Shown here piece after piece: positions 3,591 to 35,350 of a stretch of DNA of 55,638 bases. Location of the stretch: positions 1-55,638 of IMG/VR virus record IMGVR_UViG_3300028802_000018, one strand, 5' to 3'. Under the pieces are notes generated by a model. The model was not told the origin of the DNA. It did not search any database and saw only the letters and a program-made list of their open reading frames with translations. The DNA comes from a virus. Both the position numbers and the translations under genes were made by a program. Position 1 is the stretch's first letter. Each line of letters starts with the position of its first letter.

Positions 3591-5816
3591 TTACGGCGAC
3601 TCAGAGTGCGACAAGTACACATTTGTTATAGTTACTGTGCCAGAAGTAACAACCTTTGCCGCCAACGCATACCACCACTCTTGCGTTGACGTAAATCCAG
3701 AATTTTTACAGTCTACCGCAAATGGTACTCTTATTGTAGCTGCCGCAGGGTTTTTTACTGATGGGAACCCGCCGCATTGAAATCGCGTTGACCCCGCTGA
3801 CGTTGCTATATCCCCATTTACCGGCGCAGTACCAATGCCAAAAAATCCTGTCAGCAACGCTGCCGACCCTGCCGTATCATTCTCCACACCACCAGTTACT
3901 GTTAGTGTCATATTACCACTGCGCCGAGGCGTAAATGTCTTAACTGCTATTATACGATAATCTACCGTATCTGTTATCGCCGCTGGATTGCTACTATCTA
4001 ATTTCCCAAATGCTGCTGGTGTACAAAAATTGCTGTTGCGATTAGCGTTGGTAGAAATTCCATTGGTTGTACAATACAGCGTTGAACCGGCCTCGACTGT
4101 CGCGGTTGCAAAAAATGCCTGCGTGTCCCAGGTGTCTATCGTGTTGCCAAAAGCCGGCGAGCCGCCCCCCACCGACAACACATTGCCTTCTGTCAACATG
4201 CTGTAAAAATTATTTCCGTGTGCCCTCATCGGCGAGGACGCCGCAACAAGACCCCCTAACCGAAGGCCCCACCCATTGCCGCCGTTATTGAAAAGCTGGG
4301 TCATATAGAAGTTGTTGATATACCCTTCGTTGAGGTCGATGCCGATCCCGTCTTGGTGGACAACAAACGTATTATAGAAATTATTGCCATTGGCATCATG
4401 CGCGCCGCTCGACAGTACGGCCTTGGGGAAATGCAACCCTACTGCATTCCGAGAAGCAGCATGGCTTAGCGAAACGGTTGTCTTGAAGTCATTGAAGAAG
4501 GTGTCCCATGAGCCAGGAGCAGACGAACTTTCTTCAAAGGAAAAACCAAAATCCTTGACCGTGTGGACCTGCATGTTAATCGTGCTCTGAGCAACCCCGC
4601 GAAACCGGCCGCCATAACTGGCTGCGCCGAGACCTAGCAGGTTGAATGGCCCCACCCGTGTCCCGTTAACCGGCACCACAGTGGCGTTCATGTCCACCAT
4701 CGTGCCGCCCACGGCACCCAGCCACATCAACGCACCCGGCGGCACACCTGCTCCTCCCGCTGTGCCGTTTCCTTCAAGCACCTGACCACTGGCGAGAACA
4801 ATCGACGCCGCGATACCGCAGATACCCTTCGGTAGACTCGCCTTGTTGCCCGTCGCAATCGCCGCGTTGATTGCCGTGGAGTTATCCGTGCCATACCCCC
4901 ACATCAGGCCGGTTCCCGACGCAGAAGCCGCAGAAGCAAGAACAGCGCTCGTTGGCGTCGTAACGCTCTGAATGGTCGTTACCAGATTGTCGCGTAACCA
5001 AGTTACGGTCAGCGTCGCGTCGCCCACCGTAACGGGATTAGCGGGGACAACCGAATACGATCCAAGACTCCCAGCCATGCCCGCAACCGCCGTAATCACC
5101 CCACCGGAGACGCTGCGAACGACAACCGAGCCGGCCGTGCCCGTACCGCCCGTGATAGGAATTTCCTCCCCCACCGTGTGTCCAGCGCCACCACCCACGA
5201 TTGTTGCAGTTCCAAAATACTGTGTGGACCCGACAGCGTTTACCGAGATCAATTTCCCAACATCGGCCGCCACGAAGGCGGCAGTAGCCGACGTAAAACC
5301 AGCGCTTCCACTTGTCATAGCCCCGTTTTCGCCCGACTTACCATCGCAAACCGCAGGCGTGTATAGCAGATTGTTGCGTGCCTCCGGCAGCGTAGCGTTA
5401 TTAGCAGTCGCTGACATCAGCGTTGCAGTAGTGCTCGGAAACGTAAACGTCGCAGGAAGGTCCGGAAAATTCAGGAACGTCGGCCCAGCCCCCGTAGTGG
5501 ACAGCGCCCCACCTGTAACGAGATTTCCGCCAAGCCTTATCGTTTTCCCCGTGTTATCAACCCCCGTCCCACCTTGCACTCCCGGCCAAATAACAGTAGC
5601 ATTGCTGCCGTTTGGGCGCATAAAGAAACTCTGTGGAGATAATTTCTTCGTTGACCCGCCCTGAACAATCGGCATTACATCTGAGGCACCAAGTGTAGTT
5701 GATGCCGGAGGTCGGGCATTAAGCCACACATCAAACTCCGTTACCGGAGTTTGCGCTATTGCTGCTGCACCAACTACTGTGCAAAAAAGAACAGCACCCC
5801 AAATTCCAAAACGCAT
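3591..5816 (-). CDS. Tailspike-like beta-helix protein with Sec signal peptide
   Basis: 741 residues from ATG 5816 (an upstream in-frame ATG at 5846 overlaps the preceding gene). Residues 1-21 form a clear Sec signal: a short basic start, a hydrophobic core (GIWGAVLFCTVVGAAA) and an AxA-like site before QTPVTEF. Residues about 22-75 are almost identical to the next gene upstream and resemble phage fibre anchor segments (DVMPIVQGGSTKKLSPQSF). A Gly-rich strand module (about 190-270, ending in YSVVPANPV) also occurs in the adaptor protein. Then follows a Gly/Asn-rich right-handed beta-helix of pectate-lyase type and a C-terminal strand-rich domain. Probably binds or degrades a surface polysaccharide; catalytic residues cannot be assigned. 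A+T-richer than its neighbours. Confidence 0.75.
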   Translation of the reverse strand: MRFGIWGAVLFCTVVGAAAIAQTPVTEFDVWLNARPPASTTLGASDVMPIVQGGSTKKLSPQSFFMRPNGSNATVIWPGVQGGTGVDNTGKTIRLGGNLVTGGALSTTGAGPTFLNFPDLPATFTFPSTTATLMSATANNATLPEARNNLLYTPAVCDGKSGENGAMTSGSAGFTSATAAFVAADVGKLISVNAVGSTQYFGTATIVGGGAGHTVGEEIPITGGTGTAGSVVVRSVSGGVITAVAGMAGSLGSYSVVPANPVTVGDATLTVTWLRDNLVTTIQSVTTPTSAVLASAASASGTGLMWGYGTDNSTAINAAIATGNKASLPKGICGIAASIVLASGQVLEGNGTAGGAGVPPGALMWLGAVGGTMVDMNATVVPVNGTRVGPFNLLGLGAASYGGRFRGVAQSTINMQVHTVKDFGFSFEESSSAPGSWDTFFNDFKTTVSLSHAASRNAVGLHFPKAVLSSGAHDANGNNFYNTFVVHQDGIGIDLNEGYINNFYMTQLFNNGGNGWGLRLGGLVAASSPMRAHGNNFYSMLTEGNVLSVGGGSPAFGNTIDTWDTQAFFATATVEAGSTLYCTTNGISTNANRNSNFCTPAAFGKLDSSNPAAITDTVDYRIIAVKTFTPRRSGNMTLTVTGGVENDTAGSAALLTGFFGIGTAPVNGDIATSAGSTRFQCGGFPSVKNPAAATIRVPFAVDCKNSGFTSTQEWWYALAAKVVTSGTVTITNVYLSHSESP

Positions 5817-5830
5817 TTTACTCGCTTTCT

Positions 5831-8005
5831 TTACAATCCGACCCACGCCGAACCGTTATAGAATACCGGGCATATCAGGGCACCACCAGCAGTCGGCGCA
5901 ACACCCTTAGCCGGGCATGCCGCAGTTTGATCCGTCACATGTGCTATAGCGCCTGCCACAGCACCCAATATCACCGTGGCCGGCAACGAGCCAATTGCAT
6001 ACGCCCCCGTGATAAGTGGACTGGCAATTTTTAGAGGAGCCGTGCTGTCGCTATGCAAGGCATAGCTAGTCGAGCTAGCAACCGCATTCCCAGAAATATA
6101 AACGCCTCGATTTGTCGTCCCCGCGCTGCTGCCCTGACCAACAACAACCTGGAATCCATTGTTTATCACCGTGCCCCCCGCACCAGCCGCAGCGGACGCT
6201 CCCCCCATACCAAAGCCCGTATTAGTCACTGTTCCGGTGGTGATGCCATGACCATTGGTCAGGGTGCCCGCCTGAAACCCGGTGTATGCCGGAACGGTCA
6301 CGGCAGACGAATTAGTCATCGCGGAAGTAAAACTCTGGATAGCGTCCAACGTGCCAGTAAAATTCGCTGACACGATTGGCTGCGATAGCAGCCCACGCAT
6401 CACTGTAACCGGCACCGCAGTGGTTCCTAAAGTTGGGTGCGCCGAAATTTCGTTAATTACCGACAGGCTAGCCCCTCCAGGAATATATGTAGTTTGACTA
6501 ATCCTGCCTTGTTGAGTTGCTGTCTCTGGAGATATTACCGTCGAAGTCCTATCGGCAACCACTCTTGTTGTCAAACTTTCCAGCAAGATCGGCAACGGAA
6601 ATCTGTTGTTCCGCAGTACGTTCTCGACTGGCGCGCTGTTAAGCTCGTAATAACTATAAAGCTGACTAGCGCCGCCCAAATCAACGTTATTCGCGAACGT
6701 GTTGTAACTTGGATTTATTCCAACACCCAAACTACTTTCTATTACAAACGCACCCTTGTTATTGTCTACTTGCGGAGTTCCTAGCGCCACATTCTCACTT
6801 TGGTTGTCAGCTATAAGGTTGTAGCTACCAAACACAAACGCGCAAACGCCGCCAAGATTATAACACTGGTTATTAACGAATTGGCTATACTCACCGTTTA
6901 GCTCGATGCCGCCAGCCGGGGTGCCGTTAACGTCGATGCTAAGGCCGCTGTCGTGCAATATGTTTCCGGCAATCAGGTGATACTTGCTGGTATCCTGTAT
7001 CTGGAAAATACCCGTGCCAAATTGCCAACCGGATATGTTGTTGTTAATAACATGAGTATATTTGCCGTTAACAACCATCTTTGAATTGACAAACGTGTTG
7101 CTCTTGATACGCACGTTCTCGAAATCGTTTGGCGGCGTTATGCCAGCCATTGTCAGCCCACTACTGACCAAAAGCGGACTCATTGAGGTTTGCTGGATGT
7201 AACTGTTCTGAACCGTCCAATTCTTCATAATGCAACCACCAGCAGCCTGAGCGACGACACCAATCGAATGGTCCCCGATGTTAATAAGTCCAACGTTGTC
7301 AATTACAAAATCAGACGCGCATCTATAGCGCAGCAAGAAGCTAAAATCTGTCGCAACACCAGTTGAAGACTGAATACCTAATGCGAAATCAATAGAAAGA
7401 TCACGCCAACCGCCACCATTCTTGCTGACAACATTAAATACCCCTACCGACGCTTCACCAACCGGCAACGTGCATGCTGACAGTTTCAACGTCGTCGTAG
7501 CGCGCCCACTGCCGTAGATCGTCGGCGCACTAGCGAACGTGTATGGACCGCAACCAAACACAAATATGCCCGGCCCAAACATAACATTCGGGGAATTGGT
7601 TAGTGCCGCAATTGCCGTGATGCATACCGTATTGTCTGTTGCCCCATCGCCCACGCAACCAAATTGCTCGGCCGAAACATACGACGATACGCCCAGAGCA
7701 GTCCGCCCCTGAGCCGATGTTAGCGCAGTCGGAACGGCTGAAGTTCCCGAAACATTACCCATAACCCGATTAGTTGAAATCGGCGTGGCATTGCTCCCAT
7801 CAGGTCGCATAAAGAAACTCTGCGGATAGAGTTTACGAGTCTCCCCACCCTGCACCACCGGCATTATATCCGTAGAACCAAGTGTCGTTGATGCCGGGGT
7901 ACGAGAATTGAGCCACACATTAAACTCCGTTACCGGAGTTTGCGCTATTGCCGTCACGCCAACAGTGCAAAAAAGAACAGCACCCCAAATTCCGAAGCGA
8001 CGCAT
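5831..8005 (-). CDS. Second tailspike-like beta-helix protein with Sec signal peptide
   Basis: 724 residues. ATG 8005 is chosen because it lies 1 base after the adaptor stop, with AGGTG upstream, and gives MRRFGIWGAVLF, a standard Sec signal cleaved near AIAQ-TPV. The first 75 residues are a paralogue of the neighbouring tailspike. Residues about 130-480 contain a DGATDNT segment and many 'N-N-x' turns typical of pectate-lyase-like beta-helices (for example FVNSKMVVNGKYTHVINN). The C-terminus (GGALICPVFYNGSAWVGL) is a strand-rich cap. The two spikes share an exported anchor but have different beta-helices, suggesting different glycan targets. Export of a tailspike is unexpected. Confidence 0.75.
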   Translation of the reverse strand: MRRFGIWGAVLFCTVGVTAIAQTPVTEFNVWLNSRTPASTTLGSTDIMPVVQGGETRKLYPQSFFMRPDGSNATPISTNRVMGNVSGTSAVPTALTSAQGRTALGVSSYVSAEQFGCVGDGATDNTVCITAIAALTNSPNVMFGPGIFVFGCGPYTFASAPTIYGSGRATTTLKLSACTLPVGEASVGVFNVVSKNGGGWRDLSIDFALGIQSSTGVATDFSFLLRYRCASDFVIDNVGLINIGDHSIGVVAQAAGGCIMKNWTVQNSYIQQTSMSPLLVSSGLTMAGITPPNDFENVRIKSNTFVNSKMVVNGKYTHVINNNISGWQFGTGIFQIQDTSKYHLIAGNILHDSGLSIDVNGTPAGGIELNGEYSQFVNNQCYNLGGVCAFVFGSYNLIADNQSENVALGTPQVDNNKGAFVIESSLGVGINPSYNTFANNVDLGGASQLYSYYELNSAPVENVLRNNRFPLPILLESLTTRVVADRTSTVISPETATQQGRISQTTYIPGGASLSVINEISAHPTLGTTAVPVTVMRGLLSQPIVSANFTGTLDAIQSFTSAMTNSSAVTVPAYTGFQAGTLTNGHGITTGTVTNTGFGMGGASAAAGAGGTVINNGFQVVVGQGSSAGTTNRGVYISGNAVASSTSYALHSDSTAPLKIASPLITGAYAIGSLPATVILGAVAGAIAHVTDQTAACPAKGVAPTAGGALICPVFYNGSAWVGL

Positions 8006-24603: not shown

Positions 24604-24797
24604 CAGTGTCCGCGCCCCCATACACTGGCTCGAACGCTAGCAGCAGCGTGAGCCGGCACGTCATACACCCCGAACGGCGTTATCTCACCGTGCTTGCCAC
24701 AAGCTGGGCAGATCACACCGCCACACTCGTCGCATGGGAGTGGAAGTTGATCAACCTGAAGATGGGTGTAACAGGCAAGGCAGATGCTGTCCGTCAT
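24603..24797 (-). CDS. Small zinc-ribbon protein
   Basis: 64 residues from ATG 24797, overlapping the beta-helix gene stop, with GGGAGGGAG directly upstream. Three Cys pairs (CLAC, CDEC, CPAC) and nearby His indicate zinc binding in the style of a zinc ribbon. The C-terminal part (FGVYDVPAHAAASVRASVW) is plain. The gene opens directly into the terminase genes. DNA-binding or regulatory role possible, not shown. Confidence 0.65.
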   Translation of the reverse strand: MTDSICLACYTHLQVDQLPLPCDECGGVICPACGKHGEITPFGVYDVPAHAAASVRASVWGRGH

Positions 24798-26587
24798 CTC
24801 CCTCCCCCGCACTGATAGTAAATCTGGCTGCTGTGCATCGTAGCGCTGCCGGTTATCGTCCATGCTGGCGGCGTTCCTGCTGGCGTGGCATATAACGTAA
24901 ACGGATTGGTTGGCGTGAACACACATGAATTAGCTTCTGTCTGGAACGGCATGGTAAGGAGACATGTCGTTGTCGGATTGGTGCTGCCCACAGAAATAAC
25001 GCCAGCTATTGGCCCACCAGACAGTGAAGCCCCTGAGCCGCATGAGCTTACGACAGGCAGAGGCGGTTTGTGGAGCACATTCCCTACATATGAAATCTCA
25101 CCAGCCCCGCTCGTGACAATATCCACAGTCCCCGTCATATCCGCAGAGATATTACCAATAAATTGTTGCTCACCAGTTCCTAGGGCTACAGTCGCGAGAT
25201 CATACAAATATGCAACGCGATTACCAGATAGAACGAACCCATCCATACCAGATGCGATGCGCAAGCCGTGATGCTTCGTACTAGCCGGCACGCCACTGAA
25301 TAGATTATTACGAAGCTCAACGTGTGTTCCTGAAACTGACGCTGTAGCATTTACGAGATAGAAATCTGTGCCATCATTATTACTTCCGAAAGCAACACTG
25401 CTATTACTAATGTATACGGATGCACCTGCCGTCTCGATAAGCGAACCTGCCGCAGTGTTGTAAAGGGAATCACGCAACCTGAGCGCCCCAAGCGTCCCCA
25501 GCTTGAACGCCGTAGCCTTGCCCCCTGTGCCGCTGCCAGTGAAGGCATCCGCTTTACCCGCCGTGCAGGAGTTGCACCGCATTGTGAAATTGTTAAGCGT
25601 GCCGCCGGCCGTCGTATCGATGTGCGTTACCACACCATCAATCGCCATATCGATATTACCGAAATCTATCCTTGCCGTATTATCAAGCTTGAATCCCCAT
25701 CCCCACGCAAAGGCTGTTCCGTTGATGATCGATATAACCGCTCCAGGTCCGGTGATCGGAGCAATGATATGAAACATACTATTGAGTCCGCTCGCCAAAT
25801 CGACAGCGGTTTTAACAGCAAATGTCGAGCCGGCAGCATCAAGCCAAGCGCCATGCCCGAAACCGACATTAGAAAATAGCATATACGAACCAACAGATGC
25901 TACAGTAAACAAATCATGTACCGCATACAGAACAGAGTTGTTTATGAAAAAAAGCCCAATGCCACCAGACGAAGCGCTCTGCTTGTACCCGTCGTATGCG
26001 TTAATAATGCGAATGTTATCCCAGTACATGTTGAAAACACCAACTGGGGTATCGGTAAACAACGGTGGGTATACCGTAACGCCATCAATCTGATTAGGCC
26101 AATAAAAATTAATACCCTTCAGTGTTATCCCTCCATCGCCTAAAATAAATGGTATAGTTGATGTACTTGTTAGTAAGAAGGTCGTCCCTTTTAGCGCTCC
26201 CCCTCCGGGGGCAACTCCGGCCCCCTCCATTGAGCAACTATTCATGTTAAGGCTAGCTACGCCGGTCAATAGAATTGACCCAGGCGGGAGGATCAGCCTT
26301 CCCTTAACCGCAGCGCACGCCGTGAGCGCTGCCTGCATCGCAGCATCGTCGGATGTCGTCCCGTTCGCGACAACGCCATATGCCGACGCATAAATCTGCG
26401 CCCCGGAGCCTTCGGCGGGGGTGGGAACCATAGCCGCAGCGATCGCTGCATTGAGTTGCGACGTGGGGATCGGGCACCCGCCCGTGAACGGATAGGTATT
26501 GACCTGCGGGCAATGCGCCTGCGCCGCAGCTAGGCTCGGAGAAAAGGCCACGCCAAGCCAGACAGCCGCAGCGGCGATAAATTTCAT
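24794..26587 (-). CDS. Secreted pectate-lyase-like beta-helix protein (fibre or depolymerase)
   Basis: 597 residues from ATG 26587, chosen for GGGAG/GGGG upstream and because it begins a standard Sec signal (MKFIAAAAVWLGVAF, cleavage near AAAQ-AHC). Then a short segment with Cys residues, followed by YGVVANGTTSDDAAMQAAL (residues about 70-90), the pectate-lyase-type start of phage tailspikes, and a long right-handed beta-helix with Asn/Gly turns. The C-terminus is YYQCGGG. It is the first gene of the head operon, far from the other spikes. Likely glycan binding or cleaving; export predicted. Confidence 0.72.
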   Translation of the reverse strand: MKFIAAAAVWLGVAFSPSLAAAQAHCPQVNTYPFTGGCPIPTSQLNAAIAAAMVPTPAEGSGAQIYASAYGVVANGTTSDDAAMQAALTACAAVKGRLILPPGSILLTGVASLNMNSCSMEGAGVAPGGGALKGTTFLLTSTSTIPFILGDGGITLKGINFYWPNQIDGVTVYPPLFTDTPVGVFNMYWDNIRIINAYDGYKQSASSGGIGLFFINNSVLYAVHDLFTVASVGSYMLFSNVGFGHGAWLDAAGSTFAVKTAVDLASGLNSMFHIIAPITGPGAVISIINGTAFAWGWGFKLDNTARIDFGNIDMAIDGVVTHIDTTAGGTLNNFTMRCNSCTAGKADAFTGSGTGGKATAFKLGTLGALRLRDSLYNTAAGSLIETAGASVYISNSSVAFGSNNDGTDFYLVNATASVSGTHVELRNNLFSGVPASTKHHGLRIASGMDGFVLSGNRVAYLYDLATVALGTGEQQFIGNISADMTGTVDIVTSGAGEISYVGNVLHKPPLPVVSSCGSGASLSGGPIAGVISVGSTNPTTTCLLTMPFQTEANSCVFTPTNPFTLYATPAGTPPAWTITGSATMHSSQIYYQCGGGR

Positions 26588-27070: not shown

Positions 27071-27241
27071 ATGTCAATGCGCACCGGGGGAACTTACAAC
27101 GGAAAACACTTCGCCGAAACACATACTGAACGCGGCGGACGGCGGTTCTTTATCGACGGCAAACCGACCAAGAAGGCGATATGGCAAGCCGAGCGTGAAG
27201 CAGCAAGACGCGAAGACATCAAACAGGAGCACAGCAGATGA
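27071..27241 (+). CDS. Small early protein 2
   Basis: 56 residues from ATG 27071 with AGGAGCACAGCAA upstream. Basic and polar (HTERGGRRFFIDGKPTKKAI, WQAEREAARRED). The final codons also encode the ribosome-binding site of the next gene, and the stop overlaps its ATG (ATGA). Function unknown; the net positive charge allows nucleic-acid binding. Confidence 0.6.
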   Translation: MSMRTGGTYNGKHFAETHTERGGRRFFIDGKPTKKAIWQAEREAARREDIKQEHSR

Positions 27242-27459
27242 CCACCCGGTACGAAACCATCCTCAAGGCCGAACAGGCAATCGACCCCCGCAAGTTCGAT
27301 TTCGGCCAGAAGATCAACGCCATCCTCGCCGCAGCCGAGGACAACGCCACGGACAGCAAGGGCCGCGTCGAGAGCATCATCTGCCTCCTGTCCTTCCCGT
27401 CACCTGATCGCACCCCGGAAGTTATCGCTTGGTTCTCCAAGCTCGGCGTCAAAGCCTAA
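27238..27459 (+). CDS. Small early protein 3
   Basis: 73 residues. Helical and amphipathic (DPRKFDFGQKINAILAAAED, then RVESIICLLSFPSPDRTP). Start has AGGAGCACAGCAG at the same spacing as two neighbours. No recognised family. Confidence 0.6.
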   Translation: MTTRYETILKAEQAIDPRKFDFGQKINAILAAAEDNATDSKGRVESIICLLSFPSPDRTPEVIAWFSKLGVKA

Positions 27460-27473
27460 CAGGAGCACAGCAG

Positions 27474-27704
27474 ATGACCACCATCGCACGCAACCGGATC
27501 GAAAAAGTCCTTCCCCGCATCATCAGTGGCACGCGATACACCCTCGAAAATTACTTCAACGGCGAAGCAATCAGCGCCGAACAAGTCTGCGGCTTCGTTC
27601 GCATGTGGACAGACCGGCAAACCGGCAAGATGACCCTGAACGGCACGAAGGGTTGCTATCACCTGCACTCAAACCATTGGGTTGATTTTGAGGTAGCAGC
27701 CTAG
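27474..27704 (+). CDS. Small early protein 4
   Basis: 76 residues from ATG 27474 with the same AGGAGCACAGCAG leader. Basic N-terminal helix (RNRIEKVLPRIISGTRYTL) and a C-terminal part with aromatic and His residues (KGCYHLHSNHWVDFEV). Function unknown. Confidence 0.6.
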   Translation: MTTIARNRIEKVLPRIISGTRYTLENYFNGEAISAEQVCGFVRMWTDRQTGKMTLNGTKGCYHLHSNHWVDFEVAA

Positions 27705-27737
27705 CGCCGCCCCTCTATCGGAACAGGAGAAAATCAG

Positions 27738-27911
27738 ATGCTTACCATCCTCTCCCAAACCATCACTACCTACCCGACCAAAGCCGCCGCCGACGCGCTC
27801 GCTGCCAACCTTCTCGCCGACGACCCCGATACTGACTATCAGGTTGTCGCCAACAATGCCGGCTTCTACGTCGCGATCTTTGAAGACGGCAAACAGGTTT
27901 TTACCCTCTAA
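27738..27911 (+). CDS. Small early protein 5
   Basis: 57 residues from ATG 27738, preceded by AGGAGAAAATCAG. Helix-rich start (PTKAAADALAANLLADD) and a strand pair at the end (YQVVANNAGFYVAIFEDGKQ), which suggests a small alpha/beta fold similar in outline to early protein 1. Function unknown. Confidence 0.6.
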   Translation: MLTILSQTITTYPTKAAADALAANLLADDPDTDYQVVANNAGFYVAIFEDGKQVFTL

Positions 27912-27932
27912 CATCAAACAGGAGAAGATCAG

Positions 27933-28184
27933 ATGACCCAGCAATTCAAAGTAGGCCAAACCTACGCAACCCGCTCAATCGGCGATCACGATTGCATCCA
28001 TTCCTTCACAATCCTGGCACGCACGGCCAAGACGATCACCACGAAAGTCAGCGGCAAGACCGTTCGCCGGGGCCTCAGCGTTTGGAATGACACCGAGCAG
28101 TTCCGACCCTTCGGCACCTATTCGATGTGCGCCGTCATCAGCGCCACCGATCGCGCTATCTCCCTCGCCCGTAACGCTAGCTAG
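27933..28184 (+). CDS. Small early protein 6
   Basis: 83 residues from ATG 27933 with AGGAGAAGATCAG upstream. Mostly strands (FKVGQTYATRSIGDHDCIHS, TILARTAKTITTKV), suggestive of a small beta-barrel. No recognised family. Confidence 0.6.
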   Translation: MTQQFKVGQTYATRSIGDHDCIHSFTILARTAKTITTKVSGKTVRRGLSVWNDTEQFRPFGTYSMCAVISATDRAISLARNAS

Positions 28185-28932: not shown

Positions 28933-29357
28933 GGCTCGCTCCCAGGCTTTGTGGGTTCGCCGGACTTAGTCGCTAGTGTGTCTGTACCGTCACCCCGGAC
29001 CACACCCGCCGCCGCATTACTGCTTTGGCGCTCGGTCAAGCGAACCGGCGAACCCACATCAACAATACGATCAAGTATCCTATACGCGCAACAGACCCAA
29101 TCCATTCGCCGCGCTCGGTTGTTATCCCAATGCGGCTCGGGAAGTTCGTCATCAGCCGTTGCCCTCGCAATTTGTTTGGCTTCCGCGAAAGCCGCTGCTC
29201 TGGCCTCCCGGGCGTGCTCGTCGCCGTAGGCCTGAATGGCACGGGCAACGTTCTCGGCTCTCTCCCACATATCGCGGTACAGGTTGATATGTGGCGGCGG
29301 CGTCTGGCCTAACGCGGCCCAGGCTCGATTCATCACATCGGCGTTAATCTGATCCAT
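28929..29357 (-). CDS. Duplicated-family protein, copy A (DQI family)
   Basis: 142 residues from ATG 29357, overlapping the preceding stop (TGATG), with GGAGG upstream. The first 60 residues (AWAALGQTPPPHINLYRDMW, ERAENVARAIQAYGDEHA) are shared with the gene at 29801-30079. The C-terminal half differs and includes an Arg-rich helix. No known family. Repeated use of the module suggests an assembly or partner-binding role. Confidence 0.6.
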   Translation of the reverse strand: MDQINADVMNRAWAALGQTPPPHINLYRDMWERAENVARAIQAYGDEHAREARAAAFAEAKQIARATADDELPEPHWDNNRARRMDWVCCAYRILDRIVDVGSPVRLTERQSSNAAAGVVRGDGTDTLATKSGEPTKPGSEP

Positions 29358-29596
29358 CACCAATCCTCCGATACGTCCCGCTTCGCCACACGAAGCTTCC
29401 TGGGCGGCGGCACCCTCCCATGATACGGCTTCTCGCCAACATCCTTCCCCAGCGGAATGCCGTTAAAAGCCGCAGCGCTGCCCGCTGGCGCATTTTCCGC
29501 TCCTTGAGCCTGTAGGGTAGCCGCCTCCCCCTCTACCTGCACCACAGCCTCAGCGTTGGGGACTTCTGCCCCACTCCGCTCTACAGAAAATTCCAT
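29357..29596 (-). CDS. Duplicated-family protein, copy A (GAENAPAG family)
   Basis: 79 residues from ATG 29596, where GGGGG lies seven bases upstream; a longer frame reaches 29797 but runs through the broken XRE copy. The stretch QVEGEAATLQAQGAENAPAG, then AAFNGIPL, recurs in the gene at 30060-30302. The C-terminus is basic (PPPRKLRVAKRDVSEDW). Low-complexity Ala/Gly. Function unknown. Confidence 0.55.
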   Translation of the reverse strand: MEFSVERSGAEVPNAEAVVQVEGEAATLQAQGAENAPAGSAAAFNGIPLGKDVGEKPYHGRVPPPRKLRVAKRDVSEDW

Positions 29597-29800: not shown

Positions 29801-30079
29801 TTATCGTACACGCCTTGTCTGCGATAGTGTGTCAAATAACTCACACAACCATTCATATGCCGCTGGATGATACAAGCTAGCGATCATTTGCTTTGCCTCC
29901 TCTATCGCCTCTGCTCTGGCCTCCTGAGCGCGCTCATCGCCATACTGCTGGATAGCGCGGGCGACGTTCTCCGCACGCTCCCACATATCGCGGTACAGGT
30001 TGATATGCGGCGGCGGTGTTTGGCCTATCGCGGCCCAGGCTCGTTCCATCATGTCGGCGTCACCGATAATCTGATCCAT
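29801..30079 (-). CDS. Duplicated-family protein, copy B (DQI family)
   Basis: 92 residues from ATG 30079 with GGAGGG upstream. The N-terminal 60 residues match copy A (AWAAIGQTPPPHINLYRDMW). The shorter end (HPAAYEWLCELFDTLSQTRR) is unique. It overlaps the preceding gene by 20 bases. Function unknown. Confidence 0.6.
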   Translation of the reverse strand: MDQIIGDADMMERAWAAIGQTPPPHINLYRDMWERAENVARAIQQYGDERAQEARAEAIEEAKQMIASLYHPAAYEWLCELFDTLSQTRRVR

Positions 30080-30302
30080 CACTCAGCCCTCCGTTTGCCA
30101 ACAACGGAATGCCGTTAAAAGCCGCATCCGTACCCGCTGGCGCATTTTCCGCTCCGACAGCCTGTGGGGTAGCCGCCTCCCCCTCAACCCGCATCACAGC
30201 CTCAAATTTGGGGACTTCTGCCCCATCCTGGATTACCGCGATGGCGCGCGACGCTTCGCCATAATGTCTGTCATCGATCCCTCTTACAAATCCGCAGAGC
30301 AT
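30060..30302 (-). CDS. Duplicated-family protein, copy B (GAENAPAG family)
   Basis: 80 residues. RVEGEAATPQAVGAENAPAG, then AAFNGIPLL, is shared with copy A. The N-terminus (MLCGFVRGIDDRHYGEASRA) is different and overlaps the zinc-finger gene upstream by 19 bases. Function unknown. Confidence 0.5.
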   Translation of the reverse strand: MLCGFVRGIDDRHYGEASRAIAVIQDGAEVPKFEAVMRVEGEAATPQAVGAENAPAGTDAAFNGIPLLANGGLSDGSDYR

Positions 30303-30574: not shown

Positions 30575-30858
30575 CTCCCTGCCTCGACAACCAACCGTAT
30601 CTTTCGCTTCATCGCCGGCAGTCGCTCGGCCCACCGAGCACGAAGCTCATAGGGGTCAGACCATTTCTGCATTTCGACATCCTCCTGCCTGTCATCGCGA
30701 CGATCATCCAAACCGGCAGACGCAAGAATCTCGCGGATTGTTTGATAGTTCGGAGAACGCTGCAACCGAAACTCCCGCTTTAGCATCATCGATATCATAG
30801 CCCTTGAGAAACCCTTGCGCCCAAGCTCCACCACCCGCATCGCTTCATCCTTGTTCAT
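30571..30858 (-). CDS. Hypothetical, possibly DNA-binding protein
   Basis: 95 residues from ATG 30858, overlapping the previous gene's end by 14 bases. The start EAMRVVELGRKGFSRAMISM, then NYQTIREILASAG, is helical and could be a helix-turn-helix. The rest is charged (RWAERLPAMKRKIRLVV). Function unknown. Confidence 0.5.
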   Translation of the reverse strand: MNKDEAMRVVELGRKGFSRAMISMMLKREFRLQRSPNYQTIREILASAGLDDRRDDRQEDVEMQKWSDPYELRARWAERLPAMKRKIRLVVEAGR

Positions 30859-31372
30859 CGTAATCGTCCTCTGCTGGTTGTTTCGACCGAGCACTTTCAA
30901 CAAGCGCCCCAGGGAATGTACTTTTAGCCAACGCAATTTCTGGAAACTTTTCGATTAATCTAGCGATCTCCTCACCCGTCCATACATCGACATACCTACC
31001 GGCATACCAAACCGAGAACGCTTCCGCTCGTGTACGACATAACGCAACAACCCGACCGTCCGATAGTCCTATCTCCCAAACGTCAGGATGACATACAGCA
31101 GCACCGGCTTGTGTAGCAGCAACGTCGAGAGCTTCCCATGCACGCCGCATAGCACCACCCGACTGCCGCACCCGCTCGACATCGCTGGCTGTTATAGCCT
31201 CGTTGAACCTGCGTAGTTGTTTGCGAAATTTCTCCCGCAACGCATCAGACACCAGCAACTCCAATCTACCAACACCCCACTTCGTTTCATACAGCCGCGC
31301 TGCCTCATCCACGCCGGCAACCACCGACGAAATCGCATCGTGCTCTCCACGGGAGACCTGACGGTCGGTCAC
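30845..31372 (-). CDS. Conserved-looking phage hypothetical protein downstream of primase-helicase
   Basis: 175 residues from GTG 31372, chosen for GGAGAGGA upstream; an ATG at 31411 would add 13 residues. The pattern RLELLVSDALREKFRKQLRR, then MRRAWEALDVAATQAGA, then HPDVWEIGLSDGRVVALCRT, is one I associate with phage replication operons, with no assigned function. Acidic C-terminal end (EDDYDEQ). Confidence 0.6.
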   Translation of the reverse strand: MTDRQVSRGEHDAISSVVAGVDEAARLYETKWGVGRLELLVSDALREKFRKQLRRFNEAITASDVERVRQSGGAMRRAWEALDVAATQAGAAVCHPDVWEIGLSDGRVVALCRTRAEAFSVWYAGRYVDVWTGEEIARLIEKFPEIALAKSTFPGALVESARSKQPAEDDYDEQG

Positions 31373-31416
31373 GGATTCCTCTCCTCTGATCCTGTTACAA
31401 TCGGACTGCACTCAGG

Positions 31417-31471
31417 CTCCGTTACGGTTGGTGACCCCCCTAAAGGGGGGCACACCTCCTGCGTAACGGAG
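31417..31471. other. Nested inverted repeat downstream of primase-helicase
   Basis: CTCCGTTACG (31417-31426) pairs with CGTAACGGAG (31462-31471). Inside, GGTG (31430-31433) pairs with CACC (31453-31456), and CCCCCC (31435-31440) with GGGGGG (31445-31450) around a TAAA loop. No T-run follows on the minus strand. The design fits a cruciform, protein-binding or replication element at least as well as a terminator. Confidence 0.7.
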
Positions 31472-31699
31472 AGAGCAGTATGTGCCCGACCGTAACGAGC
31501 GTAACGTAACGGGCTGTTTTAGGTCTCTCACAGCAGCCATACCCTTTCCATGTTCATACCGATTACCCCCTTATCGGCCAATGAGTTAAGCACCCGAAAC
31601 ATGCGCTGCCTCTCAGCGTTACTAAGGGCCGTAACGCCCTCCGTAACGGAGAGCTTTCCGCGCTTGATTAGCCAGTCTCTCAAAAAGACCCGCGTTACG
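31419..31699. repeat. Cluster of CGTAACG/CGTTACG repeats (iteron-like)
   Basis: The 7-mer CGTAACG or its complement occurs eight times: at 31420, 31462, 31491, 31500, 31505, 31630, 31642 and 31693. The first five lie in the gap after the primase-helicase gene and the last three within its 3' end. Two form the arms of the nested inverted repeat. Such clusters are typical of replication origins or operator arrays. Confidence 0.7.
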
Positions 31700-33654
31700 G
31701 TGCGTAATACGGGCATTCCGCGCTCAGGACTCAACGTCTCCGTGCCGTCTCCACGGTTGACGATCTCCCGGATTTCCCCCAGGAAGCTGCGATCTGTGTC
31801 GGTCAATCGGGCAGCTTTTGCCTCACGTTCCGGCACGGCCATATCTATGACAATGCAGCTTGTAACCTCCTTGCCGCGCTTGTTCATGCCCAGCGATAAT
31901 TGCTTCAACTCAAATGCAAACTCCCCATCTATCTCAAGTTCGCGTTGCTTTTTAACAAACGCTACGCTACAGGTAGCCTCCTCTGGCCGAGTAATCTCGA
32001 TCTCTGTATCTGTAGCCGCTCTGAGCGACGAGTGCCCCCTTGCGCCACGCGCTTGGTCTTTACCAGAATGATGAATGAATGAAACATGCGCACCTGTTTG
32101 TTCCCTGATCCTATCCGCTGATTTAACAATCTTCCCCATATCCTCCGGGGCATTCTCATTGCCCCCTGCCATAGCTCTGGCAAGAGTGTCGATAACCACC
32201 AGCTTGATAGGGATTCCTATTTTTTCTGCGGCTTCCTTGATAAGCATGATAAGAGGCTCCGTATCAGCGTTTGCATCAAGCATGTTTATCGAGCACGGCA
32301 CAATTGCAAAGGCAACTGCCTCGTCGCTTGCTACATCGTAATGCTGCCGTAGGGCAGCTATACGGTTCCTGATACCGAAACCACCCTCAAGGGCGACATA
32401 GATAACACCGCCCTTTTCAACGTCGCGCTTCCGCCAGCGGCGACCTGAAGCCACATGAAATGCGAGGTCTGTCATAAAAAACGTCTTGCCGCAATTTGAC
32501 TCGCCATAGATGACCGACATACCTGCGTCACACAGCAAGCCTTCGACAAAGTCCGACGCATCGAGGGATGGCTTCACGTCTATGAACCATTCAATAGGAA
32601 GGGATTGCGAAACGGCGGGACCGAAATCTTCATCGGTCGGATTGGGGATTTCCCATTTCTGTCGTCCGGTCCGGATCATCTCCGGCACTTGACTCCACGA
32701 ATTACTGTTCGGAATGCCTTTTAGAAGTCCCTCAAATAGCTGTAATATGACGCAATCTGGTTGCTGCTTTCTGATCAGATACCCGATGAAAGCGAGCGTA
32801 TTGTTATGACGCTCGTTATCAGCCTTGATGGCATCGATCCATTTTTGCGGATCGGTACGCACGCGGCGGCCCGTGGTAAAATCTGGCCGCCCCGGCGGGT
32901 CATCGAACACCTCACCTGTGTCGGGATCAAACCCGTTGGTGTGCCCATTGCTATAGGCGTGCCCATTGGGTGCGACTTGGGGATAGGCCCTCATCAGGGC
33001 TTCCAGGGGGACGGGAGCGCGCTCCTCCTCATCTTCATAGAGGGTGCGCAGTGTTACCGGCTCGGTGATATATCCTCGTGCAACCTTCTTGGGGGAGGGA
33101 TAATTGACGGTTCCAGCGAGGCGCATGAGCCGAGGTGAATCGATGACGTGATCAGCCCTAAAATACTCTGCCAGGGCGAGTTGCAGTTGCGACCACAGGG
33201 GCAGATTCCGGATAGGCTCCTCAAGCTCCCAGTACGGTTGTGGGCGGGGATTGGGGATGCGTCCGCTGGTTACCGCCCAGCCGTAGGGGATGGGAGCCGC
33301 ACGAAGCCGTGCGGCCGTCTCCGGGCTGTCTCCGTCTACAAATAGATTAAATGCAATCTCAATGTCGTCGGCCGAAGCGCGCCCGAAAGGCGGCGACCCC
33401 GGCTTGCGGGGATTGACCCCGACGTAGACATTGCGGCCGATGGCATTATATCGAACGGCAAGGTCCGTCGCTGCATCAAGGGCGGCATGATCTAGCGCGA
33501 ATGTTTCGGCGGAGTTTACTGCGCCATGGGTGTCAGCCCAGGCGATTTCGCAGCGACCCAGCGGGTATTCCAACCGTGGGCGGCGGAATAGCCGCTCTAG
33601 GTGGGCACGGATAACCACCGTATCCGGTTTTAGGGCGTCTGGATTATCTGACAT
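31528..33654 (-). CDS. Primase-helicase (AEP-type primase plus RepA-like ATPase)
   Basis: 708 residues. The N-terminal half resembles RepB-type archaeo-eukaryotic primases: FNLFVDGDSPE (102-112) gives the acidic pair, and PRLMRLAGTVNYPSPKK (174-190) is the second signature. The C-terminal half is a RecA-fold helicase of the RepA/AAA_25 type: Walker A GESNCGKT (384-391), Walker B LVVIDTLARAM (485-495), and the HHSGKDQARGARGHSSLRAA segment. A winged-helix-like end follows. Together they would prime and unwind DNA. No DNA polymerase is seen nearby, so the host enzyme is probably recruited. Both flanks have structured DNA. Confidence 0.85.
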   Translation of the reverse strand: MSDNPDALKPDTVVIRAHLERLFRRPRLEYPLGRCEIAWADTHGAVNSAETFALDHAALDAATDLAVRYNAIGRNVYVGVNPRKPGSPPFGRASADDIEIAFNLFVDGDSPETAARLRAAPIPYGWAVTSGRIPNPRPQPYWELEEPIRNLPLWSQLQLALAEYFRADHVIDSPRLMRLAGTVNYPSPKKVARGYITEPVTLRTLYEDEEERAPVPLEALMRAYPQVAPNGHAYSNGHTNGFDPDTGEVFDDPPGRPDFTTGRRVRTDPQKWIDAIKADNERHNNTLAFIGYLIRKQQPDCVILQLFEGLLKGIPNSNSWSQVPEMIRTGRQKWEIPNPTDEDFGPAVSQSLPIEWFIDVKPSLDASDFVEGLLCDAGMSVIYGESNCGKTFFMTDLAFHVASGRRWRKRDVEKGGVIYVALEGGFGIRNRIAALRQHYDVASDEAVAFAIVPCSINMLDANADTEPLIMLIKEAAEKIGIPIKLVVIDTLARAMAGGNENAPEDMGKIVKSADRIREQTGAHVSFIHHSGKDQARGARGHSSLRAATDTEIEITRPEEATCSVAFVKKQRELEIDGEFAFELKQLSLGMNKRGKEVTSCIVIDMAVPEREAKAARLTDTDRSFLGEIREIVNRGDGTETLSPERGMPVLRTVTRVFLRDWLIKRGKLSVTEGVTALSNAERQRMFRVLNSLADKGVIGMNMERVWLL

Positions 33655-34444: not shown

Positions 34445-35350
34445 TTATGCCGCTGTAGCGCGCGGCCCGCTCACCGACCAGATTTGGCTCTGGCGGTAAT
34501 CCTCTGTCTCTTTAATCAGGCGTTGGCCCTGATCACAAAATTGTAGAGCAGGGCAATAGTCAGCGCAACGCTTTTGTTCAGCCGGTCGCTCCCTGATTTC
34601 GTGTCCTGCGCCTGCCAATGAACACGCTGCATTCGCCTCGGCCTCTGTATCGAACAGCTTGGTAGCGCGGACGTTCTTCCCTTTGTACAAGGCATAGACC
34701 GCTGGCCGCTCCCACCGTTCGTCGGCAGAGCATTCCGGCAAGGTATGTTGCGCTTTGCCGTGGGCCATGAGGCGTTCCCTGATGTACGCTTCGGTAACTT
34801 GACGAGGCCACATTGTTACCGGGATTACGAGTGCAGGCGTTTGTGGGTAGTCGGCGGTGTGCTTTGACTTAGCTTTCTGCCAATCGCGAAGAATGGCGAC
34901 AACTTCAAGGTTGGTAACGGTGTACCCGTGCTCGCGCAGCATCAGCGCATAGATATTTTCCTGCGCTTCCCATTCCGGCTTGGACCCGTCCTTGATGGCA
35001 TAGGTGGAAGTCATCTTGTAATCTTGCAGGCGTCCATCGCTTTCTAGTAGATAGCGATCAAACGCGCCTGAGATACGCCACCCGTGCCGCTCTATGAACA
35101 GGCGTTCCTCGCACCATGCCTGATCGTCGGCGCGCTCAAGGATGCCGTGTGCGATCTGACCCATCAGTGCCCAGATGCGCTCGCTGACATCTTCTGTAAG
35201 CTCGTCGGCATGGGCAATTTCGAGGGCACGCTTGCGAGCCGGGCCGATCATCCCTGTGACGGAGATATGCGCGTCGCCCCTGCTGTACCTGTCATTCTGC
35301 ACCGCTTTGGCGATGGATGACGGGAGGTTGAGACGGTTTGTTATTTTCAT
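34445..35350 (-). CDS. PD-(D/E)XK nuclease, Cas4/RecB-like, with Cys cluster
   Basis: 301 residues from ATG 35350 (ATGA overlap with the preceding stop). Catalytic pattern: EERLF, GAFDRYL (Asp 98), LQDYKMT (Asp 110, Lys 112) and the QENIYALML motif (130-138), which define the RecB/Cas4 nuclease family. A C-terminal Cys cluster (RCADYCPALQFC) with an upstream Cys could hold an iron-sulphur cluster as in Cas4 or AddB. Coupled with the SSB-like and helicase genes, it probably processes DNA ends in phage recombination. Confidence 0.8.
   Translation of the reverse strand: MKITNRLNLPSSIAKAVQNDRYSRGDAHISVTGMIGPARKRALEIAHADELTEDVSERIWALMGQIAHGILERADDQAWCEERLFIERHGWRISGAFDRYLLESDGRLQDYKMTSTYAIKDGSKPEWEAQENIYALMLREHGYTVTNLEVVAILRDWQKAKSKHTADYPQTPALVIPVTMWPRQVTEAYIRERLMAHGKAQHTLPECSADERWERPAVYALYKGKNVRATKLFDTEAEANAACSLAGAGHEIRERPAEQKRCADYCPALQFCDQGQRLIKETEDYRQSQIWSVSGPRATAA

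Follow-up and report, generated by a model that had tools for sequence, protein, structure and literature searches.

The DNA analysed here (the window) is a viral record of 55.6 kb, taken at its full length (IMG/VR record IMGVR_UViG_3300028802_000018, positions 1 to 55,638), and the element in question is a cluster of seven-base repeats at the end of its primase-helicase gene. From sequence comparison, these repeats are very probably part of the phage replication origin, and it is considered highly likely that the region 31417-31699 is this origin and is recognised by the protein whose gene overlaps the array. The same arrangement, with differing words, is present in the sequences of dozens of related phages, prophages and phage-plasmids. 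A preliminary description of this DNA had proposed the site as an origin candidate, a proposal that gained support from the arrays of relatives, from circular phage-plasmids and from co-variation of the repeat word with the winged helix of the primase-helicase.

The repeat, CGTAACG (CGTTACG in the sense of the gene), was counted in eight exact copies within 31420-31699, in both orientations as first described. Read as CGTAACG, the copies start at 31420 (minus strand), at 31462, 31491, 31500, 31505, 31630 and 31642 (plus strand) and at 31693 (minus strand). In gene sense, the first is a distal arm oriented opposite to the gene (CGTTACG at 31420..31426, plus strand) and the second a proximal arm of the core (31462..31468, minus strand), followed by three iterons directly past the stop codon (31491, 31500 and 31505; 31491..31511, minus strand). 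The remaining copies lie within winged-helix codons, two on the minus strand (31630 and 31642; 31630..31648) and one in the opposite orientation (31693..31699, plus strand). For the array as a whole (31417..31699, no strand assigned), the earlier placing beside the primase-helicase gene holds for the five copies in the 116-bp gap preceding the next gene but not for the other three, which fall within the final 57 codons of the gene itself. No other 7-mer of the window is as clustered as CGTAACG, which has eight copies in 280 bp compared to five for the runner-up independent word, and a 7-mer cluster never exceeded six copies in 40 simulated genomes, which bears out the strong clustering that had been claimed. 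Counted over the whole record, the word occurs 23 times against 6.2 ± 2.2 in shuffled sequences, and no other cluster of it of equal density was found there. The two copies at 31630 and 31642 encode part of a loop peptide, SVTEGVT (iterons in 31630-31660), which is extra and absent from close relatives and would mean that the initiator carries a translated origin repeat. A weak CGTTACG-like group (two exact words and three with one mismatch) was also observed at 4959-5034, inside a 751-aa (amino acid) open reading frame (3591-5846), and probably represents coding repeats.

Two of the iterons form the arms of a nested inverted repeat (31417..31471, minus strand), the candidate origin core, and its three layers are present as originally reported. 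The outer arms are 10-bp iteron arms (CTCCGTTACG at 31417-31426 and CGTAACGGAG at 31462-31471), inside which are GGTG/CACC and then a CCCCCC/GGGGGG stem enclosing TAAA (a TTTA loop on the minus strand). Folded as single-stranded DNA, the repeat has an energy of -19 to -20 kcal/mol (z about -5). An Rfam search returned no match. A hairpin of this kind, GC-rich in its stem and soon after a stop codon, could simply end the primase transcript, the repeats then being by-products. This is very improbable, however, as it has no T-run, was not reported by a terminator scan and is flanked by converging iterons, and a terminator has no need for 8-12 iterons or for copies upstream of the stop.

Relatives were collected through the protein only, and the most clustered 7-mer near the stop codon of each locus was determined, with an array defined as a single 7-mer that occurs at least six times at -150..+450 relative to the stop. 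Among viral loci (dereplicated at 85%), 25/35 had an array compared to 6/646 other windows, and among loci of bacterial genomes, which were fetched later as an independent check, 32/77 had one compared to 8/1178 other windows (a background of about 0.8% for the viral and genome sets). Array position peaks within the first 250 bp past the stop (60 of 111 loci) and is near zero elsewhere. The words vary by lineage (CGTAACA, TGCAACA, CGCAACA, CGGGACA, CCGGACA, CCAGACA, CGTGACA, CGTTACC, CTACAAA, TGCGGAA, and others), and their common layout is one of same-strand runs past the stop with a spacing of 9-12 bp, then inverted copies; the same-strand spacing peaks are 9, 10 and 12 bp, approximately one helical turn. 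Cultured phages with such arrays are Rhizobium phage 16-3 (12 copies of CGTGACA directly past p101) and Roseobacter phage CRP-811 (11 copies of CTACAAA). An array was not found at the corresponding place in Microcystis phage Mae-JY30 and Caulobacter phage GB2A, both distant helicase matches, and the arrangement is therefore not universal. The matches listed when viral contigs were scanned for triple CGTAACG mixed coding repeats with many kinds of arrays and were not used as evidence.

The hairpin is also a recurrent feature of the relatives' loci. Of the hairpins near the stop with a loop of 4 and a stem of at least 5 bp, 39/153 have a TWWA loop, compared to 26/3987 of those in the background, and 37 lie within 250 bp past the stop. 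The stem pairs of the TWWA hairpins have 61 double-sided changes where shuffles have 24; as hairpins with perfect inner stems had been selected, it is the constant loop and the range of different pair types that are informative. Their usual site is between the last forward and the first inverted iteron, a geometry that the window shares, and the A+T content, as a family average, is 5-8% above the locus mean at -80..+200, a broad rise without a sharp element. An unbiased scan for C6TTTAG6 placed 35 of its 120 matches beside a family stop and three more beside divergent AAA_25 genes, the remainder being unexplained or other hairpins. The loci L296, L391, L392, L354, L401 and L353 have a C6TTTAG6 hairpin with 7-11 nearby copies of a short word and no recognised replication gene found adjoining, and these hairpins are possibly origins of other initiators. 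At L011, L051, L065, L066, L070 and L073 the core between converging iterons consists of a G-rich arm and a TATATATC...GATATATCCC palindrome, replacing the C-rich TWWA hairpin, and the replacement palindrome is AT-rich in L051, L065 and L070.

The association of the repeats with the adjoining protein was then assessed by co-variation. Across 65 loci, iteron distance correlated with winged-helix distance after helicase distance was removed (partial rank correlation 0.43, p 0.001), and the reverse test, iteron against helicase distance given the winged helix, gave 0.09 (p 0.14). In the clearest natural swap, between near-identical phages, loci L013 and L025 have helicase proteins that are 100% identical and winged helices that are 48% identical, with a DNA identity of about 55% within a patch from ~-300 to ~+150 of the stop and about 90-97% outside it (92-97% downstream). 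This patch of ~450 bp is exactly the winged helix plus the array, and at corresponding positions every copy is TGCAACA in one locus and CGTAACA in the other. The same swap pattern recurs in the pair L014/L021, and the same-word pairs L018/L025 and L013/L014 are 82-93% identical across the patch. When alignment columns were scanned for dependence on the iteron bases, residue 683, in the predicted recognition helix (residues 679-694, 31573-31620, minus strand), was first for both base 3 and base 4. Lys or Arg at this residue accompanies xxGGACA words (27/27), Val or Ala accompanies xxxAACA words with A at base 4 (9/9), and Gln, the residue of the window protein (31606-31608), is present in five of the eight loci whose word is xx[TA]GACA (base 3 being T or A).

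These data bear on the suggestion that the repeats are an operator or promoter, where a repressor would bind to regulate either the downstream gene or the primase operon. Short repeats are used by phage repressors, the array sits between two same-strand genes and autoregulation could coexist with an origin, but the word co-varies with the winged helix of the helicase itself, and the array lies past the helicase gene in the loci of many lineages, reaching into the coding region. Furthermore, a sigma-70-like promoter was not found on the coding strand, and the downstream protein (30845..31411, minus strand, 188 aa, no family) gave no relatives when searched. An operator is thus an unlikely explanation, and an origin recognised by the primase-helicase is preferred.

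The primase-helicase, the putative initiator (31528..33654, minus strand, 708 aa), was classed by PHROG/Pfam as AAA_25 and was modelled with AlphaFold2 (AF2). Its helicase domain (residues 353-610, 31825..32598, minus strand) resembles RepA of RSF1010, with Z 22.7 over 228 residues and a root-mean-square deviation of 2.7 to 1olo_A, TMt 0.72 to 1nlf_A and an hmmsearch E of 6.8e-8 to the RepA family; RepA and DnaB are its top structural matches. A C-terminal winged helix is predicted at residues 612-708 (31531..31821, minus strand; AF2 pLDDT, the predicted local distance difference test, 87.5), and its structural neighbours include the winged helices of ORC, MCM and CRP as well as a plasmid Rep-DNA complex, with Z of about 7-8, on account of which the claim goes no further than the fold class. 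Neither the N-terminal 333 residues nor the winged-helix profile retrieved a useful homolog in sequence searches of PDB. Of 31 relatives, 17 have Prim-Pol in the N-terminal region, and several have Toprim. At the DNA level, no relatives of the region were found among cultured phages, except for a methylase fragment.

Arrays of this type also occur on circular phage-plasmids. On the 38-kb plasmid of Caenibius sp. WL, where phage structural genes are also encoded, the array has 12 copies of TGCGGAA, and on the 35-kb plasmid of Methylobacterium currus it has eight copies of CGCAACA, each being the top cluster of its whole record. Among 49 proteins from these two phage-plasmids, Pfam listed no plasmid initiator family besides AAA_25, in a scan that showed 25 of 28 matched families and left out most structural and very short proteins. 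The primase of the M. currus plasmid is a separate Toprim gene, which argues that the array goes with the helicase and winged helix and not with the type of primase. This plasmid (L293) also encodes a DarT and macro-domain pair (24772-26482), a DarTG-like toxin-antitoxin by Pfam. Since iteron clusters also serve as partition centromeres (parS-like) or copy-control loci, and one phage-plasmid encodes a ParA, the array might have such a role instead of being a start site. Yet in the ParA phage-plasmid it adjoins the helicase at ~11 kb from parA, it is present in many loci fetched by the helicase alone, and the co-variation is with the helicase winged helix, and there is little probability that partition or copy control is the correct explanation. 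The replication origin remains the preferred reading of the array.

GC skew gives weak support to this origin. The minimum of the detrended cumulative skew of the window is at 32177, approximately 0.5 kb from the array, and the range of 628 exceeds the block-permuted 95% level of 383. The Caenibius plasmid (p1) agrees, with its minimum at 33539 and its array at 34480.

A number of points weigh against an origin read by the adjoining protein. Approximately 30% (viral) to nearly 60% (genomes) of the relatives have no array of at least six copies by the method used, C6TTTAG6 hairpins exist also without an identified AAA_25 gene, and the skew minima match the array in two of five replicons, with M. 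currus, pMRAD08 and CRP-811 disagreeing. The N-terminal 340 residues of the window protein have no match by sequence to a primase family, neither Prim-Pol nor Toprim, and the viral record may be incomplete. Since winged helix and array adjoin, their co-inheritance is partly explained by physical linkage. The residue 683 rule, derived from the alignments, is our answer to an explanation by linkage alone, although its p-values are optimistic because the column was found by scanning approximately 300 columns and the lineages are related and not independent.

In the mechanism proposed, the winged helix of the primase-helicase would bind the CGTTACG iterons, as co-variation and fold suggest, and binding would load the RepA-like hexameric helicase of the same protein and open the DNA, by analogy with RSF1010 RepA and the P4 and SaPI systems. 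The primase part might then prime the strand so exposed, possibly at the C6-TTTA-G6 hairpin between the converging iterons, a step that is less well supported. Winged helix and array would together form one exchangeable specificity cassette, its position and layout being conserved across lineages while the word changes. Lambdoid origins are known for type-specific recognition. Extra copies of the lambda origin block phage growth (PMC4488673), and for this reason it may be speculated that a phage that switches cassettes could evade interference, whether by co-infecting relatives, by satellites or by decoy origins.

More tentatively, and with somewhat less than even confidence, we suggest that self-recognising origins are widespread in phages, prophages and phage-plasmids, with a mobile winged-helix/iteron cassette (a phage incompatibility type), a simple residue-base code and the TWWA hairpin as a fixed priming or opening site. 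A description of these arrays was not found in the literature covered, with subscription papers being outside its scope, and the arrays, the cassette exchange and the residue-base rule come from the present comparison. For uncultured phages, this would offer a rule for locating origins, namely converging short repeats around a CTWWAG hairpin directly past an AAA_25 helicase gene. It would also offer the missing origin for fusions whose winged helix was merely suggested as an origin binder, and origin specificity becomes a testable code through the natural swap pairs and the cultured phages (Rhizobium phage 16-3 and Roseobacter phage CRP-811).

Elsewhere in the window, pairs of duplicated stretches that are 78-92% identical were observed in or next to neighbouring open reading frames (5596-5813 with 7785-7999, and 29170-29573 with 29886-30225). 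At 27222-27941, a unit of 25 nt (AACAGGAGCACAGCAGATGACCACC and variants) occurs four times at spacings of 195-264 bp, and these copies may be repeated leaders of small open reading frames.

The present case joins ideas from RSF1010, pRN1 and Bordetella phages, SaPI and Cch2, and primase-helicase fusions. For RSF1010, RepC, RepA and RepB' are described as acting on iterons and ssi hairpins (ssiA/ssiB), and the likeness to this IncQ oriV is in the RepA-fold helicase, the iterons and, as candidate features here, a hairpin initiation site and a hairpin-reading primase (PMC4434180; PMC4234260). In contrast to the separate RepC of RSF1010, the winged helix here is fused to the helicase, although a distant RepC elsewhere is possible. 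Its iterons are of 20 bp, whereas here 7-bp words lie approximately 10 bp apart and the origin would overlap the 3' end of the initiator gene, and the possible counterpart of the ssi hairpin per strand with a primer start is one hairpin core with a conserved loop and a covarying stem. The pRN1 ORF904 protein and those of Bordetella phages BPP-1/BIP-1 likewise combine primase, helicase and winged helix, and Berkner et al. proposed, as the assembly site of such primase-SF3-winged-helix proteins, a stem-loop a short way downstream of the gene, which is required in pRN1 and is a proposed origin (PMC4234260). Their helicase is of SF3, however, and iterons were not accepted there as the origin, whereas here iterons flank the stem-loop. 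AEP-RepA-winged-helix fusions (PrimPol-PV1) have the architecture of many of the relatives, and the window protein has a RepA-type helicase followed by a winged helix in its predicted structure; Kazlauskas et al. suggested the winged helix of primase-helicase fusions for origin recognition, and the origins of these fusions are not described in the sections available (PMC5862659). The lambda origin is similar in having iterons inside the initiator gene, but O recruits the host helicase via P (PMC4488673), whereas the initiator proposed here has its own. In P4 alpha, SaPI Rep and SCCmec Cch2 a C-terminal DNA-binding domain reads short repeats, and in SaPI and SCCmec these are directly 3' of the helicase gene, Rep and Cch2 being described as binding iterons downstream of their own genes (PMC4234260; PMC7581432). 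The motors of these systems are SF3 or MCM-like and not AAA_25/RepA-like as here, and a TWWA hairpin core is not described for them in the available sections of the same reports. By analogy, the origin of the window most likely works like those of RSF1010, P4 alpha and SaPI Rep, but its protein is built differently.
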